This document shows positions 27,057 to 33,125 of a stretch of DNA of 64,000 bases, piece by piece (the stretch's first letter is position 1; the number at the start of each line of letters is the position of its first letter). The notes below the pieces were generated by a model. It saw only the letters and a program-made list of their open reading frames with translations. It was not told the origin of the DNA and ran no database searches. The stretch covers positions 682,001 through 746,000 of the forward strand of contig NZ_CP060494.1 in NCBI RefSeq assembly GCF_014334115.1. Reading direction: 5' to 3'. The position numbers and the translations under genes were made by a program. Source of the DNA: Sphingosinithalassobacter sp. CS137 (lineage in GTDB: Bacteria > Pseudomonadota > Alphaproteobacteria > Sphingomonadales > Sphingomonadaceae).

Positions 27057-27878
27057 ATGACGAAGCGGCTATCCGAGGAGGTTGCGGACCTGATCCGCGC
27101 AGTTGCGGCGCGCGAGATCGCGCCCCGGTACCGCGCGCTGCACGCGCACGAGATCGAGGAGAAGGGCCCGGGCGACCCGGTGACCGCGGCCGATCACGCC
27201 GTTGAAACTGCGCTTGCCGAAGGGCTGCTGGCGCTGGTGCCCGAGGCGCTGTTCGTCGGCGAGGAACGCTGCGCGCGTGCGCCCGAACTACTCGATCGGC
27301 TGGGCGAGGGATTGGTCTGGGTCGTCGATCCGGTCGACGGCACCGGCAATTTCGCCGCCGGGCGCGCGCCCTTCGCGGTGATGGTCGCGCTGCTCCGCGA
27401 CGGCATCACGATCGCTTCGTGGATTCACGATCCGCTGAGCGGCCGAATGATGATCGCCGAGCGCGGCGGTGGAGCATGGTGTGACGGTCGACGGCTCGAC
27501 TCCGCCGCCGCTGCCCGGTCGGACCCGGCCGAGCTCGCCGGCATCGTCAGCAGCTTCGCCATGCCCGAGGCGAAGCGAGATGCGGTAGCTGCGCTCACCG
27601 CCGGCGTCGCAGAGATCGTTCCGACGCTGCGCTGCGCAGGACACGAATACCCGCTGGTGGCGCTGGGCGAGCGGGACTTCGCGCTCTACTGGCGCACGCT
27701 CGTCTGGGATCATGCGGCCGGAGCGTTACTGCTCAAAGAAGCCGGCGGCGTGGTCGAACGGCTCGACGGAACCACCTATCGCCCGGGCTCCACCGAAACC
27801 GGCATCCTGCTCGCGCGCAGTCGCGCCGTTGCCGACGCAGTGCACCTGCTCCTGCGCCGCGGCCAGGCGGGGCGCTGA
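27057..27878 (+). CDS. Inositol monophosphatase family phosphatase
   Basis: A 273-residue metal-dependent phosphatase. The metal-binding motifs are FVGEE (residues ~64-68), WVVDPVDGTGNFAAGR (residues ~88-103) and WDHAAGALLLKEAGG near the C-terminus, all intact. Family members act on inositol phosphate, histidinol phosphate, PAP (CysQ) or fructose-1,6-bisphosphate; the sequence does not separate these for me. It lies 57 bases after the third S10 gene on the same strand and is convergent with kdsA, so it may be the last gene of that transcript or independent. Confidence 0.85.
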   Translation: MTKRLSEEVADLIRAVAAREIAPRYRALHAHEIEEKGPGDPVTAADHAVETALAEGLLALVPEALFVGEERCARAPELLDRLGEGLVWVVDPVDGTGNFAAGRAPFAVMVALLRDGITIASWIHDPLSGRMMIAERGGGAWCDGRRLDSAAAARSDPAELAGIVSSFAMPEAKRDAVAALTAGVAEIVPTLRCAGHEYPLVALGERDFALYWRTLVWDHAAGALLLKEAGGVVERLDGTTYRPGSTETGILLARSRAVADAVHLLLRRGQAGR

Positions 27879-27890
27879 ACCGAGCGGCGC

Positions 27891-28718
27891 TCAGGCCCTC
27901 TGCTTGACGAGGCCGTCGAACGCCTTGAGCTGGCGCAGCAGCGCCGGCATGTCGCGCAGCGGGACCATGTTCGGCCCGTCGCTCGGGGCGCTGTCGGGAT
28001 CCTGATGCGTCTCGATGAACACCGCAGCCACGCCCACCGCGACGGCAGCGCGTGCGAGCGGCGCCACGAATTCCCGCTGGCCGCCCGAGCTGGTCCCCTG
28101 CCCGCCCGGCTGCTGCACCGAGTGGGTGGCGTCGAACATCACCGGATAGCCGGTTTCCGCCAGGATCGGCAGCGCCCGCATGTCGCTCACCAGCGTGTTG
28201 TAGCCGAAGCTCGCTCCCCGCTCGCACAGGATGATGTTCTCGTTGCCCGATGCGGCGATCTTGTCGGCGACATGCTTCATGTCCCGCGGCGCGAGGAACT
28301 GCCCCTTCTTGACGTTGATCGCCCGGCCGGTTTGCGCGGCCGCAACCAGCAGGTCGGTCTGGCGGCACAGGAAGGCGGGAATCTGCAGCACGTCGACCGC
28401 CTCGGCGACGGCGGCGCACTGCCCCGCCTCGTGCACGTCGGTGAGGACCGGACATCCGTAGCGCGCACGCAGTTCGGCAAACACGTCCAACGCGGGCGCC
28501 ATTCCGATACCGCGCGGCGCATCGATCGACGTCCGGTTGCCCTTGTCGAACGAGCTCTTGTAGATCAGCCCGATCCCCAGCTCGGCGCACATGCCGGTCA
28601 GCGCATCGGCCATTTCGAACGCATGCGCGCGGCTTTCCATCGCGCACGGACCGGCGACGAGCACGAACGGCCTGTCGTTGGCGATTTCGATCGCGCCCAG
28701 CTTCACGGTCTTCATCAT
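27891..28718 (-). CDS. kdsA: 3-deoxy-8-phosphooctulonate synthase (Kdo-8-P synthase)
   Basis: A 275-residue enzyme condensing phosphoenolpyruvate with arabinose-5-phosphate to Kdo-8-phosphate, the first committed step to Kdo. Family motifs are [60 protein letters not shown] and [12 protein letters not shown]; Cys occurs in CERG rather than at a clear metal site, so metal dependence is not decided here. The gene is the last of a minus-strand cluster with a KdsD-type isomerase and a CMP-transferase fusion. The surrounding genes suggest a dedicated surface glycan copy rather than, or as well as, the housekeeping lipid A core pathway. Confidence 0.92.
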
Positions 28719-28725
28719 GGCTTCC

Positions 28726-30042
28726 TCAAAACAGCCCGCATTCGTCGAGGATCGCGTTCACGTCCCGCCCCCGCGCGGCCTGCATGCGGATGCGCGCCTC
28801 GTTCGAGAGCATCTCCCACGCGGCTTCCTCGATCGCGGGCCAGTCGGCGCGGGGAATGACGATCACGCCGTCCTCGTCGGCGAACACGACATCGTCGTTG
28901 CAGATGCGGATGCCGCCCATGGTGATCGGCCGGTTCATCGCCTTGACCGTGCCTTCATACTTGATGTCGTCGCAGGTCTGGTTGCGCGCGAAGACCGGCA
29001 GGCCCAGCGCCCGCACATCGGCTGTGTCGCGAGTCGAACCGTCGATCACCGCCCCCACCGCGCCCGAACGGATCGCGAGATTGGCGTTGAGATCGCCGAA
29101 ATAGGCGTGTTCAGGAACGTCTGTGGCGACCATGATCACGTCCCCCGGCCGCACGAAGCGATAGGATTGCAGCGCATCGTAGATCCCGTTCCATGCGCCT
29201 CCGGGTGCGCGGTCGGGCCGTTGCGCGAGCGCCGTCAGCTCGAGCGTCTTGGCACGCCCCAGCAGCTTGCCGCCGCTCGTCGGCCGGAGCGCCGAGGGGA
29301 GCACCACCCGCATGCCGCGCTCCTTCGAGATGTCCGACAGGATCGACGAGCTGAGATGCGAGCGCATCGCGCGGAAACGTGTCACTTCGGCGGCGCGCAG
29401 CCCCGCAGCGACCGTCTCGGCGATCGCAAGATCGCTGTCATGGTCGATGTCGATCTGCTCGAGCGGGTCGAGATCGAACAGAATCGGTTTGGTGCCGAAG
29501 CGGCGAGTAGCGGGTGCGTTGCCGGTGCGCCGCACGATATAGAGGCTCATCGCCTCGACCACCGTGGCGGGAAGATCGACACTGTTGGGGACTCGGCCGG
29601 TGCCATAGGCGGGTGTCTGGCCGTTCCAGCAATATTGCTTCGCCCGGCTCACTCCGACGAGGCTGTCTGCCTCCGGATCGGCGAGCAGCGCCGCGATCGC
29701 GCGCGCGATGGTGTCGGCAGTGATGAAGGGAGCGGTGCACAGCAGCTGCACCCACAGATCAGCGTCGGGCCGCTGCGCGCACTCCCACGCGAACAGCGCA
29801 TGGCCGTCGGTGGCGTTGGTGGCGAGCTCCGCCGGGCGAACCAGCCGCGAAACAGGCAGATCGCTAGCGAGCTCGGCCAGTGCGTCGCTTTCGGTGTCGA
29901 GGCACACTTCGCTGATCGCCGGGCAGTCGAGCGCCTGGCGCAGCTTGCGCTTGAAGAGATGCTCGCCGTCGAGGACGCGCGTGTTCTTTCCGGCGACGCG
30001 CTCGCTGGTTCCCTTGGCGGGGATGAAGGCAACGATGTTCAT
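28726..30042 (-). CDS. Fusion: CMP-sugar (acylneuraminate/Kdo-type) cytidylyltransferase + RraA-like aldolase domain
   Basis: A 438-residue two-domain protein. Residues ~1-220 are a cytidylyltransferase of the NeuA/CTP_transf_3 type: [16 protein letters not shown] is the CTP loop, followed by [13 protein letters not shown] and [20 protein letters not shown]. Residues ~235-438 are an RraA/HMG-aldolase-like domain with [16 protein letters not shown], keeping the family's catalytic Arg-Asp pair (Arg338-Asp339), and [13 protein letters not shown]. RraA-like enzymes include class II pyruvate aldolases, whose substrates are 4-hydroxy-2-keto acids, the same skeleton as ulosonic acids. It takes the place where kdsB would be expected, 7 bases before kdsA and 4 after the isomerase gene. 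Both domains are intact. Confidence 0.85.
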
Positions 30043-30046
30043 GGGC

Positions 30047-31048
30047 TCAACCGTTCAGGATGTCGTGCGCGTGGAGCATGCCGTGCAGCTGCCCCTCGGA
30101 ATCGGTCACCGGCAGGACGAGGAGCCCGCCGCCGCCACGCTCGCGCAGCATCAGGATCGCGTCGCCGAGCGTCGCCCCGATGTCAATCACCTGCGGCGCG
30201 CGCTGCATCAGCGCATGGGCCTGGGTGTCGTACACGTCGTGGCGGGCCTGGAAATGGCGTCGGATGTCGCCGTCGACGACAAGACCGAGAAGTCGGTTCG
30301 CATGATCGACGACGCAGGCGGCGCCCATCCGCCGCCCCGACATCACCGCGAGCAGCTCCGCCACCGAAGCCGACGGCAGCACCGTCGGCAAGGCGGCACC
30401 GGTTCGCATCAGGGTACGCACGGGGATCATCTGCCGGCCGAGAAGGCCCGCCGGATGGTGGCGCAGAAAATCCTCGCGGGTAAACGCCCGCGCCCGGCTG
30501 GCGGCAACCGCCAGCCCGTCGCCGATCGCCATCTGGAGCGTCGTGCTGGCGGTCGGCGCCATGCCGATATGGTCCGCCTCGCGCTCGATCATTGCCGGGA
30601 TCAGATGATCGACCGCGCGGCCGAGCGGCGAATCCGGCTGTCCGACGATGCCGATCAGAATGCATCCGCGCGCGCGCAGCAGCGGCAGGATGCGGCAGAT
30701 CTCCTCGGTCGTTCCGCTGTTCGAGAAGAGCAGGACGACATTGCCTTCCTGCACCGCTCCCAGATCGCCGTGCGCGGCCTCGGCGGCATTGAGGAAGAAG
30801 GCCGGCGTGCCGAGGCTCGAGAAGGTCGCCGCGACCTTCGCCCCGACTAATCCCGATTTCCCTACGCCGACGCAGGTGAGCGGACGTTCCTGCGCAGCGA
30901 TCAGTTCGACCGCGGCGGCGACGCTGGCCGGAACCGCGCGTTCGAGCTGCTCGAGCGCGCGCCGTTCGCCGGCGATGACTTCGGCGAACCAGTCGCAGGC
31001 GGCGTGCGCGGCGAGCGGGCTCGGCCGGACGATTGCGGGAGCGATCAA
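30047..31048 (-). CDS. kdsD: Arabinose-5-phosphate isomerase (KpsF/KdsD/GutQ family)
   Basis: A 333-residue isomerase converting ribulose-5-phosphate to arabinose-5-phosphate, the KdsA substrate. The N-terminal SIS domain has TCVGVGKSGLVGAKVAATFS, FFLNAAEAAHGDLG and LFSNSGTTEEI; a CBS pair follows (VAELLAVMSGRRMGAACVVD, then GATLGDAILMLRERGGGGLL). The start is TTG, overlapping the stop of the glycosyltransferase-like gene as TTGA with a GGAG sequence upstream. The CBS-containing form matches KpsF/KdsD. Its position next to kdsA makes a function in Kdo-type sugar supply almost certain. Confidence 0.9.
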   Translation of the reverse strand: MIAPAIVRPSPLAAHAACDWFAEVIAGERRALEQLERAVPASVAAAVELIAAQERPLTCVGVGKSGLVGAKVAATFSSLGTPAFFLNAAEAAHGDLGAVQEGNVVLLFSNSGTTEEICRILPLLRARGCILIGIVGQPDSPLGRAVDHLIPAMIEREADHIGMAPTASTTLQMAIGDGLAVAASRARAFTREDFLRHHPAGLLGRQMIPVRTLMRTGAALPTVLPSASVAELLAVMSGRRMGAACVVDHANRLLGLVVDGDIRRHFQARHDVYDTQAHALMQRAPQVIDIGATLGDAILMLRERGGGGLLVLPVTDSEGQLHGMLHAHDILNG

Positions 31049-32217
31049 TGGAGATACTCCGGCTTCACTGCGCGAATTCGCCCGATGCCAGCCTCCCAGC
31101 GCTCGGGATTCACCGGCCGCAGCGCCCGATCGATCAGCTCCGATCCCGTCAGATCGGGGTCCGGCGAATAAAAGGCTTCGTTCGCAAAGTGATAGGCAAA
31201 CCAGAGCCGCGTGTCTTCCTCGGACGGGGCCCGCGCCTCTCCCGATCGAGCGGCGGCGACGAACCGGCCGAGATCGGTTTCCGCGTTGAGCCAGCTGGCG
31301 CTGGTGAAACGCGAGCGGCGCAGGATCGGGACGCCGAAAGCGGCAGCCATACCAAAGCTCTTCGAATCACCCAGCAACATGCCGTCGGCATGGACCGCAA
31401 GCGTGAGCGTGGCGGGAAAGCCCAGAATGGTCGGCTCGGCAAGAATCACGCGTTTTCCGAGTTGGGCAATCGTGTCGCGAAGGCCTCGCCGATCGAGATG
31501 CCGCGCATTCAGCGGATGATCGGTCACCACCAGCGTGCATTTGCCTGCAAGCTGCTTTGCGGTCTTCGTGACGAGCGCGCGGTTGCTGACCTGCGGAACG
31601 CGATGCTGGAGGAAGAAATTCTCCTCATGCTCATATTCGAGCGGCAGGAGCAGCATCGGCCTGTCCTCGGGGATGCCGGCCTGCCGGAACACCGCACCGC
31701 GATCGGGAATCGCGCGCTGCCAGTGAGTGCGCATCTCGGCCCAGAGCGGAGCGATCAGGGAGTCGAGCGAGGCGCGATCGGAGGCGCCCAGCTCCGGCAT
31801 TGCGCCGTTGACGAACGGCTGGTCGGTGATCGTCGTCGATGCGTCGAAGTGGAACGGCGCAGCGGAACCTTCCATCAGGAACCGCACCGTCCCGGGAAAT
31901 TTGCGCGCGGTCTCGAAATCGGCGGTTCGGCACAGGACGAGGTCCGGCGCCAATCCGCGCACATGCGCCACCAGCTCGGCCGCATCGCCTGATTTGGTCC
32001 TGAGGGTCGCGGGATCCGGACTGTCGATGATCTGCCAGTTAACCTCTTCAAGATCTAGGCAGTGGGCGAGCTGCTCGGGCCCGACCCCAGTGTTTCGCCA
32101 GCTGGTGGGCGCAAGCACATGCACCTCGGCCACAGTGGCGATCTTGCGCAGGATCGGAGTCACGATGTGTTCGAACCACCAAGGCGTGACGACCGGAAGA
32201 TAGAACAGGACCCGCAT
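31045..32217 (-). CDS. Putative surface-polysaccharide glycosyltransferase-like protein
   Basis: A 390-residue cytoplasmic protein I do not recognise with certainty. It starts VLFYLPVVTPWWFEHIVTPI, like the N-terminal Rossmann half of a GT-B glycosyltransferase or capsule (KpsC/KpsS-like) protein, and later has CTLVVTDHPLN and ADGMLLGDSKSFGMAAAFGV, resembling the region of GT-B enzymes that holds the activated sugar. It is the first full gene of the Kdo-type cluster and overlaps the isomerase start (TTGA). Transfer of a CMP-activated ulosonic acid is the simplest guess. The start ATG at 32217 overlaps the stop of a 20-codon ORF. Confidence 0.6.
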   Translation of the reverse strand: MRVLFYLPVVTPWWFEHIVTPILRKIATVAEVHVLAPTSWRNTGVGPEQLAHCLDLEEVNWQIIDSPDPATLRTKSGDAAELVAHVRGLAPDLVLCRTADFETARKFPGTVRFLMEGSAAPFHFDASTTITDQPFVNGAMPELGASDRASLDSLIAPLWAEMRTHWQRAIPDRGAVFRQAGIPEDRPMLLLPLEYEHEENFFLQHRVPQVSNRALVTKTAKQLAGKCTLVVTDHPLNARHLDRRGLRDTIAQLGKRVILAEPTILGFPATLTLAVHADGMLLGDSKSFGMAAAFGVPILRRSRFTSASWLNAETDLGRFVAAARSGEARAPSEEDTRLWFAYHFANEAFYSPDPDLTGSELIDRALRPVNPERWEAGIGRIRAVKPEYLH

Positions 32218-32279
32218 CAAGGCCGCCCGCGCAACGTGGCGCCGATCGGGTTCTCGAACAGGGCGGACAGATCGCTCAT
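32217..32279 (-). CDS. 20-codon leader ORF in front of the glycan cluster
   Basis: A short ORF (MSDLSALFENPIGATLRGRP) begins with ATG five bases after a GGAG ribosome site, better than the site of the gene that follows, and ends as TGATG so that its stop overlaps the next start by one base. This is the layout of translational coupling or of a leader peptide. It could also be the last remnant of a larger gene. No known leader peptide matches that I recall. Confidence 0.4.
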   Translation of the reverse strand: MSDLSALFENPIGATLRGRP

Positions 32280-32373: not shown

Positions 32374-32456
32374 CCCCGCGGGTCGCACGGACGGGATCTG
32401 ACTAGAATGGAAGCATCGGTGCCGAGCCGGCACTGCGCCCGTTGCAAAGGTTCGCC

Positions 32457-33125
32457 ATGTCCTATCTTCCCGCACCTGCCGAAGCGGCCGCCGAGGCCGA
32501 GAACACCTTCTACCTGCGCGGGCAGGTCGGCCGCATGGGCAAGCTGCTAGCCCATCTGGAGCTCTATCGGGAAATTCAGGGGCTTCCCGGCGCGGTGGTC
32601 GAGCTTGGCGTGTACAAGGGCGCGTCGCTGATGCGCTTCGCGATGTACCGGGCGCTGCTCGAGCATGAGGGAAGCCGCGAAATTCACGGGCTGGACGCGT
32701 TCGGAGCGTTCCCGCGCAACGGCGTTGACGACGCCAGCGACCGCGACTTCATCGAACGCTTCGAGGGGGAGCGCGGCGAGGGAATCGCACGCGCGACGCT
32801 CGCGCAGCTCTTTGCCGAGAAGGCAATCGGCAACGTGCACCTGCATGAGGGAAATGTGTTCGAAACCTTGCCTGATCTGCTCACGCGCAAGCCCGAGCTG
32901 CGCGTGGCGCTGCTGCATCTAGACATGGACGTGTACGAGCCCACCGCCTTCGCAATCGAGCAGCTTTTCCCGCACATGGCGCCGGGCGGGCTGATCTTGT
33001 TCGACGATTATGGCCTCGTTGCCGGCGCGACGCGCGCCGCGGAGGAGCTGGTCGCGCGCGAAGGCCTGAAGCTCGAGAAGCTGCCCTATCATGTGGCACC
33101 CAGCTTCGTACGTCTTCCGGGCTGA
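32457..33125 (+). CDS. TylF/MycF-type SAM-dependent O-methyltransferase
   Basis: A 222-residue methyltransferase of the macrocin-O-methyltransferase (TylF) family, which methylates sugar hydroxyls in a metal-dependent way. The SAM loop is GAVVELGVYKGASLMRFA, an acidic strand is IHGLDAFGAFP, and the probable metal-binding Asp residues are in LLHLDMDVYEPTA and LILFDDYG. I start at ATG 32457 (AAAGG six bases upstream). It diverges from the Kdo-type cluster, so it may methylate the glycan made there; O-methylated Kdo residues are known capping groups in some polysaccharides, but that link is inference. Confidence 0.8.
   Translation: MSYLPAPAEAAAEAENTFYLRGQVGRMGKLLAHLELYREIQGLPGAVVELGVYKGASLMRFAMYRALLEHEGSREIHGLDAFGAFPRNGVDDASDRDFIERFEGERGEGIARATLAQLFAEKAIGNVHLHEGNVFETLPDLLTRKPELRVALLHLDMDVYEPTAFAIEQLFPHMAPGGLILFDDYGLVAGATRAAEELVAREGLKLEKLPYHVAPSFVRLPG

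Follow-up and report, generated by a model that had tools for sequence, protein, structure and literature searches.

Our study describes a conserved, real and apparently uncharacterised two-domain enzyme, in which a CMP-ulosonate-synthetase-like N-terminal domain is joined to an RraA-like, aldolase-type C-terminal domain. From sequence comparison and gene context we propose, with a probability of roughly 0.6, that it is bifunctional and serves a surface glycan as a CMP-3-deoxy-2-ulosonate synthetase whose aldolase domain would act on the same free acid as the synthetase domain. The gene encodes 438 aa on the minus strand at positions 28726..30042 of the window, by which we mean the whole stretch of 64,000 nucleotides of DNA that was analysed. 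To our knowledge, the acid of the known CMP-ulosonate pathways is made by a PEP-condensing synthase (KdsA or NeuB), and the synthetase that acts next carries no aldolase domain. The sequence-only reading of this DNA had known of no named enzyme with such a fusion, and this agrees with our search, as no paper on a fusion of RraA with a cytidylyltransferase was found in the literature searched, of which subscription journals were mostly outside reach.

Architecture and residues of the fused enzyme

A single open frame spans the whole fusion gene. The N-terminal cytidylyltransferase part comprises residues 1-218 (29389..30042, minus strand) and carries the motifs [20 protein letters not shown] together with Asp198 and Asp200, and the C-terminal RraA-like part comprises residues 219-438 (28729..29388, minus strand), the border at residue 218 being our own choice. 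By Pfam, both parts belong to their superfamilies: CTP_transf_3 (PF02348) covers residues 5-126 (47.9 bits, cut-off 22.6) and RraA-like (PF03737) covers residues 235-395 (94.3 bits, cut-off 24.5). This confirms the sequence-only reading in its description of a CMP-sugar synthetase fused to an RraA-type domain, with the right coordinates, the strand being minus. Both Pfam domains were present in all of the 120 best of 707 homologues retrieved with the window protein (the top row being the window protein itself) and in all of the 120 best of 1712 homologues retrieved with the fusion of G598, a genome outside the sphingomonads. Among the matches listed, the nearest named homologues of the window fusion belonged to Sphingomonas and its kin. 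One homologue comes from Sphingomonas elodea (P0017). An artefact of a split frame was rejected, as all 240 listed homologue rows were two-domain and, within ~1.5 kb of flank, no single-domain locus of the class sample (n=27) had the two halves side by side. A gene split in relatives, which the sequence-only reading had named as an observation that would speak against it, was not encountered in what was searched.

In maximum-likelihood trees, the nine fused N-domains formed one clade (100/99) apart from 11 other rows, and the nine fused C-domains likewise formed one clade (100/99) apart from 20 other rows. The N-domain tree was midpoint-rooted, left out L016 (internal stop) and L091, and held L071 and L095 on long branches; the unfused rows of the C-domain tree were 19 of the 21 unfused loci (L021 and L025 were left out) and the genome's own second RraA. 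As each half forms a single clade, the simplest reading of these trees would be one fusion event, followed by inheritance as a unit.

Residues were counted in an alignment of 86 fusions that we picked from the 240 listed rows (49 from the window-protein query and 37 from the G598 query). In the N-domain, P8, K10, S13, R15, K19, N20, Q99, T103, P105 and D198 were invariant (86/86). By position, Q99 and D198 correspond to Gln104 and Asp209 of the meningococcal enzyme, and residue 200 to its catalytic Asp211; in the available part of PMC2901514, these three residues of the meningococcal enzyme serve metal and substrate. Residue 200 is Asp in the window protein and three others, Asn in 81 and Thr in one, and the Asn of 81/86 fusions counts against an easy transfer of the meningococcal mechanism.

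Among solved structures, the N-domain was nearer to the NeuA type (9T4Z, 94.7 bits) than to the best KdsB-type chain (31.3 bits), and in the midpoint-rooted tree it grouped with unfused relatives on the NeuA side, outside the KdsB clade (100/100). The cut-off of the KdsB model (TIGR00466, 155.2) was not reached, the fusions of G598 and G1127 scoring 26.4 bits, and the PseF model (TIGR03584) gave 47.9 bits against a cut-off of 205.7. The QGD-x-P motif, in which we take Asp98 of K-CKS to sit, was returned for 4/6 KdsB rows and for 0/9 fusions, which have Q-x2-[CG]-T-[AS]-P in its place. Asp98 of K-CKS is described as metal-binding in the available part of PMC2901514. Like KdsB, the fusion is predicted to activate a 3-deoxy-2-ulosonic acid with CTP, the same step beside KdsA and KdsD; unlike KdsB, it has an added C-domain. 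It shares the Q-x-x-T-x-P motif and the metal-site Asp with the NeuA/PseF CMP-nonulosonate synthetases (9T4Z, 1QWJ, 1EYR), which are the nearest solved relatives of the N-domain by sequence, but all 86 sampled fusions have Lys in place of the motif I Arg, and the fusion has E-x-M where 9T4Z has E-N-G. Judged by these comparisons, the N-domain is not a KdsB and groups with the NeuA-side synthetases, and the fusion is a variant among CMP-ulosonate synthetases rather than a separate category.

The RraA-like superfamily acts on 4-hydroxy-2-keto acids. We take an acidic residue 21 positions before Arg as a criterion for class II pyruvate aldolases, and the window protein carries the residues of this class (HMG/CHA type, RraA fold), with Asp317 giving the spacing D-x20-R-D, 21 positions before Arg338. 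The codons for Arg338-Asp339 lie at 29026..29031 (minus strand), and the pair aligns with Arg-123/Asp-124 of HMG/CHA aldolase (3NOJ). R338, D339 and E415 are invariant in the 86 sampled fusions; the catalytic pair that had been pointed out at 338-339 is therefore kept, and its numbering was correct. In HMG/CHA aldolase, according to the available part of PMC5065237, the enolate of pyruvate is stabilised by Arg-123, and the metal ligands are Asp-124 and Glu-199. E415 aligns two residues off Glu-199. Residue 317 is acidic in 84/86 fusions, being Asp in 46, Glu in one and Gly in two of the window-query group (n=49) and Glu in 37/37 of the G598-query group; Glu is found there in unfused RraA proteins as well. 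The proteins with Gly, P0027 and P0056, keep the Arg-Asp pair and are natural variants.

On the strength of these residues, the RraA-type domain is predicted to be a metal-dependent pyruvate aldolase. It has the Arg-Asp pair and the acidic residue 21 positions before Arg in common with HMG/CHA aldolase of the LigK type (3NOJ; TIGR02798), but it falls in a clade of its own, is joined to a CMP-sugar synthetase and scores 72.2 bits against a cut-off of 304.5. The model for the RNase E regulator RraA (NF006875) gave 35.1 bits against a cut-off of 136. A further RraA-family relative is the dehydratase/decarboxylase FlDet, whose substrate, a 2-keto-3-deoxy-hexarate, is a 2-keto-3-deoxy sugar acid; unlike the fusion, it is catabolic, carries out a different reaction and is described as a separate protein (PMC8563752, in the part available).

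The operon and the Kdo genes of sphingomonads

The fusion gene is 7 bases from kdsA (Kdo-8-phosphate synthase; 27891..28718, minus strand) and 4 bases from the gene of a kdsD-type arabinose-5-phosphate isomerase with SIS and CBS domains (30047..31048, minus strand), which overlaps by 4 bases with the first gene of the operon (31045..32220, minus strand; 390-391 aa). The kdsA product scored over the equivalog cut-off (TIGR01362, 390.2 bits against 314), and the isomerase scored over the subfamily cut-off (TIGR00393 kpsF, 235 against 203.7) and below the equivalog cut-offs of KdsD (226.9 against 505) and GutQ (198.6 against 481). The order of first gene, kdsD, fusion and kdsA is kept in 8/9 sphingomonad loci (the window, L039-L041 and L047-L050); in the ninth, L051 of genome G507, kdsA is missing, and a different contig of this genome carries kdsA together with a kdsD-type gene. 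These loci are not copies of one genome, as the closest pair among their nine fusions is 88.3 % identical, that is, at least 11 % apart.

On the plus strand, the gene of an inositol-monophosphatase-family phosphatase (27057..27878) is convergent with kdsA across a 12-base gap, an arrangement seen in 6/9 sphingomonad loci. Outside the module, in the stretches fetched, L040 and L050 have genes in common, and the only other likenesses between flanks were one pair at 35 % between the window and L039 and one large gene of L048 at 39-42 % to L040 and L050; with so few flanking genes in common, the settings in which the phosphatase accompanies the module number about five. As KdsC had no match in any of the six sphingomonad fusion holders, the window's genome among them, we propose the phosphatase as a stand-in for KdsC and a candidate Kdo-8-phosphate phosphatase. 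A TylF-type methyltransferase gene (32442..33125, plus strand) is divergent from the operon, and such genes were found near the fusion in 4/13 loci (the window, L034, L048 and L086). No reductase or dehydrogenase neighbour was common to the sphingomonad loci.

The protein of the first gene had no Pfam match of its own, and no solved chain matched it below E 0.4. Its assignment as a Kdo transferase of the Capsule_synth family (PF05159) is unsupported, as this family had no match in the window's genome or in 70 relatives of the protein (E≤1), and a comparison with one KpsC-like protein gave nothing. One of the 70 relatives matched a GT4-type family (E 0.00095), and one source name reads 'Capsule polysaccharide'. 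The first-gene protein also weakly matched, by profile, the protein beside the G040 fusion (256 columns, P 0.00085, probability 23.8); the latter protein has a sub-threshold Capsule_synth match of its own (E 0.011), and a neighbour of the G598 fusion matches GT29 below the cut-off (E 0.028). These weak profile matches to Capsule_synth, GT4-type and GT29 families may serve as leads to the transferase. From its position, its conservation with the operon, the one source name and the one weak GT4-type match among 70 relatives, we infer that the first operon gene encodes a glycosyltransferase.

The window's genome is one contig of 3,194,162 bases and is 99.98 % complete. It gave no match to a separate kdsB (TIGR00466, E≤1e-5) or to the LPS-type Kdo transferase of the waaA type (PF04413), and the fusion was its only PF02348 match; no other Kdo activator is therefore known in the host, despite the presence of kdsA and a kdsD-type gene. 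This is in line with the earlier suggestion that the fusion replaces a separate kdsB beside kdsA and kdsD, the isomerase being of the kdsD type. PF04413 was absent from 6/6 sphingomonad fusion holders and kdsB was over its cut-off in 0/6, the PF02348 search having covered only the window's genome among them. In G507, a gene beside the other kdsA matches the kdsB model with 103.9 bits (cut-off 155.2), and the matches to this model in G560, G557 and G492 are weak and partial; because of these partial or sub-cut-off matches, further CTP transferases may be present in the four genomes.

Within the order, the fusion was found in 6/296 genomes at E≤1e-60, with a patchy distribution. kdsA was over its cut-off in 87/296 genomes, comprising 6/6 fusion holders against 81/290 others (Fisher p 0.0006, which is uncorrected for relatedness and partly restates the operon). 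A KpsC-like gene lay within ~17 kb in nine of the 20 kdsA loci fetched out of these 87, one of the 20 being from G507 and one of the nine being the source of the KpsC-like query protein; other members of the order may thus use Kdo for a capsule-type linker. In a relative from the same family, one such KpsC-like (Capsule_synth) protein has its gene beside kdsA (L064:8518-10857). The kdsA genes of L068 (L068:6300-8896), L077 and L078 are 73-76 % identical to that of the operon, and the one of L068 lies by parA/parB-type genes, a kdsD-type gene and a methyltransferase gene, with no CMP-synthetase among the ORFs scanned.

Fusions outside the sphingomonads and unfused relatives

A full or near-full match to the fusion was found in 3/289 genomes of the class sample (its own genome, G040 at 50 % and G268 at 42 %), in 2/398 genomes of the phylum sample at E≤1e-30 (its own and G598 at 45 %) and in 2/321 genomes of the class of G598 at E≤1e-60 (G598 and G1127); the G1127 fusion is 53 % identical to that of G598 and 41 % to that of the window. 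A search of the contigs of named genomes with the window protein as the single query returned three loci. Among the matches listed for the G598 query, the source names included Stutzerimonas, Pectobacterium, Lelliottia, Vibrio, Photobacterium, Pseudoalteromonas, Rubrivivax, Acinetobacter, Caballeronia and Microbulbifer, which we take to span the beta- and gammaproteobacteria. Going by source names, the fusion is not special to the window's cluster and has homologues in many genera, whose machine-made names are already composite ('regulator of RNase E activity RraA/CMP-N-acetylneuraminic acid synthetase'). The G598 fusion had no match in plasmids, in phages or, as DNA, in E. coli genomes, and the window fusion had none in plasmids.

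The genomes G040, G268, G598 and G1127 are of LPS type, with kdsA, kdsB and PF04413 over the cut-off or present in 4/4, the kdsB of G268 only barely so (157.2 vs 155.2). Neither kdsA nor kdsD was found beside the fusion in the stretches of G040, G268 and G598 or among the genes of the G1127 stretch. The fusion island of G598 contains a 554-aa protein with the sub-threshold GT29 match, GT2s, an ATP-grasp protein and an aminotransferase, that of G268 contains RgpF and RmlD-type genes, and that of G040 contains the protein with the sub-threshold Capsule_synth match and a TylF methyltransferase. The position of LPS-type fusions in glycan islands without kdsA or kdsD, in genomes with their own kdsB, argues against a plain CMP-Kdo synthetase there. 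The G268 fusion (L035:9168-10352) has 394 aa and ends early, without the last part of the aldolase domain, through decay or an assembly error. In G1127 (L086:6716-12106), the fusion and a TylF methyltransferase stand between two TPR proteins that are related to each other (25 % identity); none of the genes near this fusion was recognised as sugar-building, and the outer neighbours look by eye like housekeeping genes. As far as partial descriptions go, we take these TPR proteins to resemble modular TPR flagellin glycosyltransferases such as FlmG.

The four nearest unfused N-domain rows were L007, L008, L009 and L033. A 2-hydroxyacid dehydrogenase gene was present in all four of these sister stretches and an HpcH/HpaI pyruvate aldolase gene in two, adjacent to the synthetase in one only. 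In G091, the aldolase gene lies 7 bases before the synthetase, with a HAD phosphatase, an epimerase and a 2-hydroxyacid dehydrogenase near; in G148, it lies ~7 kb away, just before another synthetase-like gene, and NeuB is encoded in the stretch. Among more distant synthetases (L107-L114), a NeuB-type synthase was found in 6/8 stretches. In this small sample, dehydrogenases tend to accompany the sister branch of the fusion, and pyruvate aldolases do so in some cases. The clusters of unfused N-domain relatives at L038:4657-9668 and L036:1327-13029 hold an HpcH/HpaI aldolase, a HAD phosphatase, an NAD epimerase and a 2-hydroxyacid dehydrogenase, and possibly represent a further, unstudied CMP-ulosonate pathway.

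Proposed function and competing explanations

In the host sphingomonad, KdsD and KdsA would produce Kdo-8-phosphate, from which the neighbouring IMPase-family phosphatase would probably free Kdo. The N-domain would couple the acid to CMP with CTP and Mg2+, and as no other activator is known in the host, its substrate is most likely Kdo or a derivative. The RraA-type domain would act on the same free 4-hydroxy-2-keto acid within one protein, for which the activity of FlDet on a 2-keto-3-deoxy-hexarate sets a precedent in the family: by retro-aldol and aldol reaction at C4, Kdo could pass via pyruvate and D-arabinose to 4-epi-Kdo (3-deoxy-D-gluco-octulosonate), and the protein of the first gene (31045..32220) would transfer the activated sugar. 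The activities, direction, product, acceptor and transferase of the pathway are as we infer them. Since the LPS-type holders own a kdsB in 4/4, the fusion should add more than CMP-Kdo. Of the single outcomes, we consider it likeliest that Kdo is remodelled at C4 and that the sugar activated therefore differs from plain Kdo, although we hold this tentatively and at clearly less than even odds; it is favoured because it fits both contexts and needs only chemistry known for the fold. Capsule clusters can carry a redundant second kdsB, so a separate kdsB is no proof of a new sugar, and with kdsA in the operon no aldolase is required for Kdo synthesis, which counts against the bifunctional reading. 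The earlier suggestion that the aldolase domain acts on an ulosonic acid to give a non-Kdo sugar keeps the standing of a prediction, to which the kdsB of the four LPS-type holders, the NeuA-side N-domain and the HpcH/HpaI aldolase of 2/4 sister loci point.

The strongest rival to C4 remodelling is editing of free Kdo, in which a plain CMP-Kdo synthetase would carry an RraA domain for pool control that cleaves surplus Kdo to pyruvate and D-arabinose, or that has a role in assembly only. CMP-Kdo hydrolyses easily. In its favour, Kdo is all that the operon supplies, the genome search brought up no second activator, and with R338/D339 kept in 86/86 fusions an editing domain would be active. However, this explanation leaves the LPS-type holders with a kdsB already in 4/4 and with the fusion placed among glycan genes without kdsA or kdsD, the N-domain clade excludes KdsB, and a purely structural domain need not keep aldolase residues, so that we regard it as rather unlikely. 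A smaller chance is given to the view that the acid is formed in the aldolase domain, from pyruvate and a common aldose or aldehyde, and activated at once by the N-domain, with the sphingomonad kdsA and kdsD serving otherwise. The G1127 fusion, which lies among TPR and TylF methyltransferase genes and near which no sugar-building gene was recognised, is consistent with this, as is the sister synthetase with an HpcH/HpaI aldolase gene 7 bases before it and a HAD phosphatase, an epimerase and a 2-hydroxyacid dehydrogenase near, but the kdsA of the operon and its co-occurrence with the fusion would then be unexplained, with no other Kdo-using CTP transferase found in the genome.

Two remaining explanations concern the RraA domain alone. 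It might catalyse a different reaction of the acid, for instance its dehydration or decarboxylation, for which FlDet is a precedent in the same family (PMC8563752, in the part available); this is improbable, as the aldolase Arg-Asp pair and its spacing are kept and the sphingomonad loci share no neighbouring reductase or dehydrogenase. That it is RraA proper, a regulator of RNase E attached here to a sugar enzyme, as the machine-made source names would have it, is hardly credible and is rejected by its score (35.1 bits against 136) and by the retained aldolase residues, and the gene context is one of glycan genes.

Taken more broadly, C4 remodelling and the building of an acid from pyruvate would both belong to a widespread, undescribed aldolase-coupled route, to which we give somewhat under even odds. 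Its RraA domain would rebuild Kdo, as a C4 epimer or with another aldehyde partner, or build an acid from pyruvate, and the synthetase would trap the product as a new CMP-sugar for a non-LPS glycan, in bacteria of which some seemingly lack LPS. If this is true, the sister synthetase with an HpcH/HpaI aldolase beside it would represent the same principle realised a second time, without fusion. In summary, a synthetase permanently joined to a domain of the pyruvate aldolase type suggests a reversible aldol step within the pathway, which would be a sign of a new activated sugar or of a built-in control of free Kdo, and which would explain why kdsA and a kdsD-type gene are retained in sphingomonads without a waaA match.
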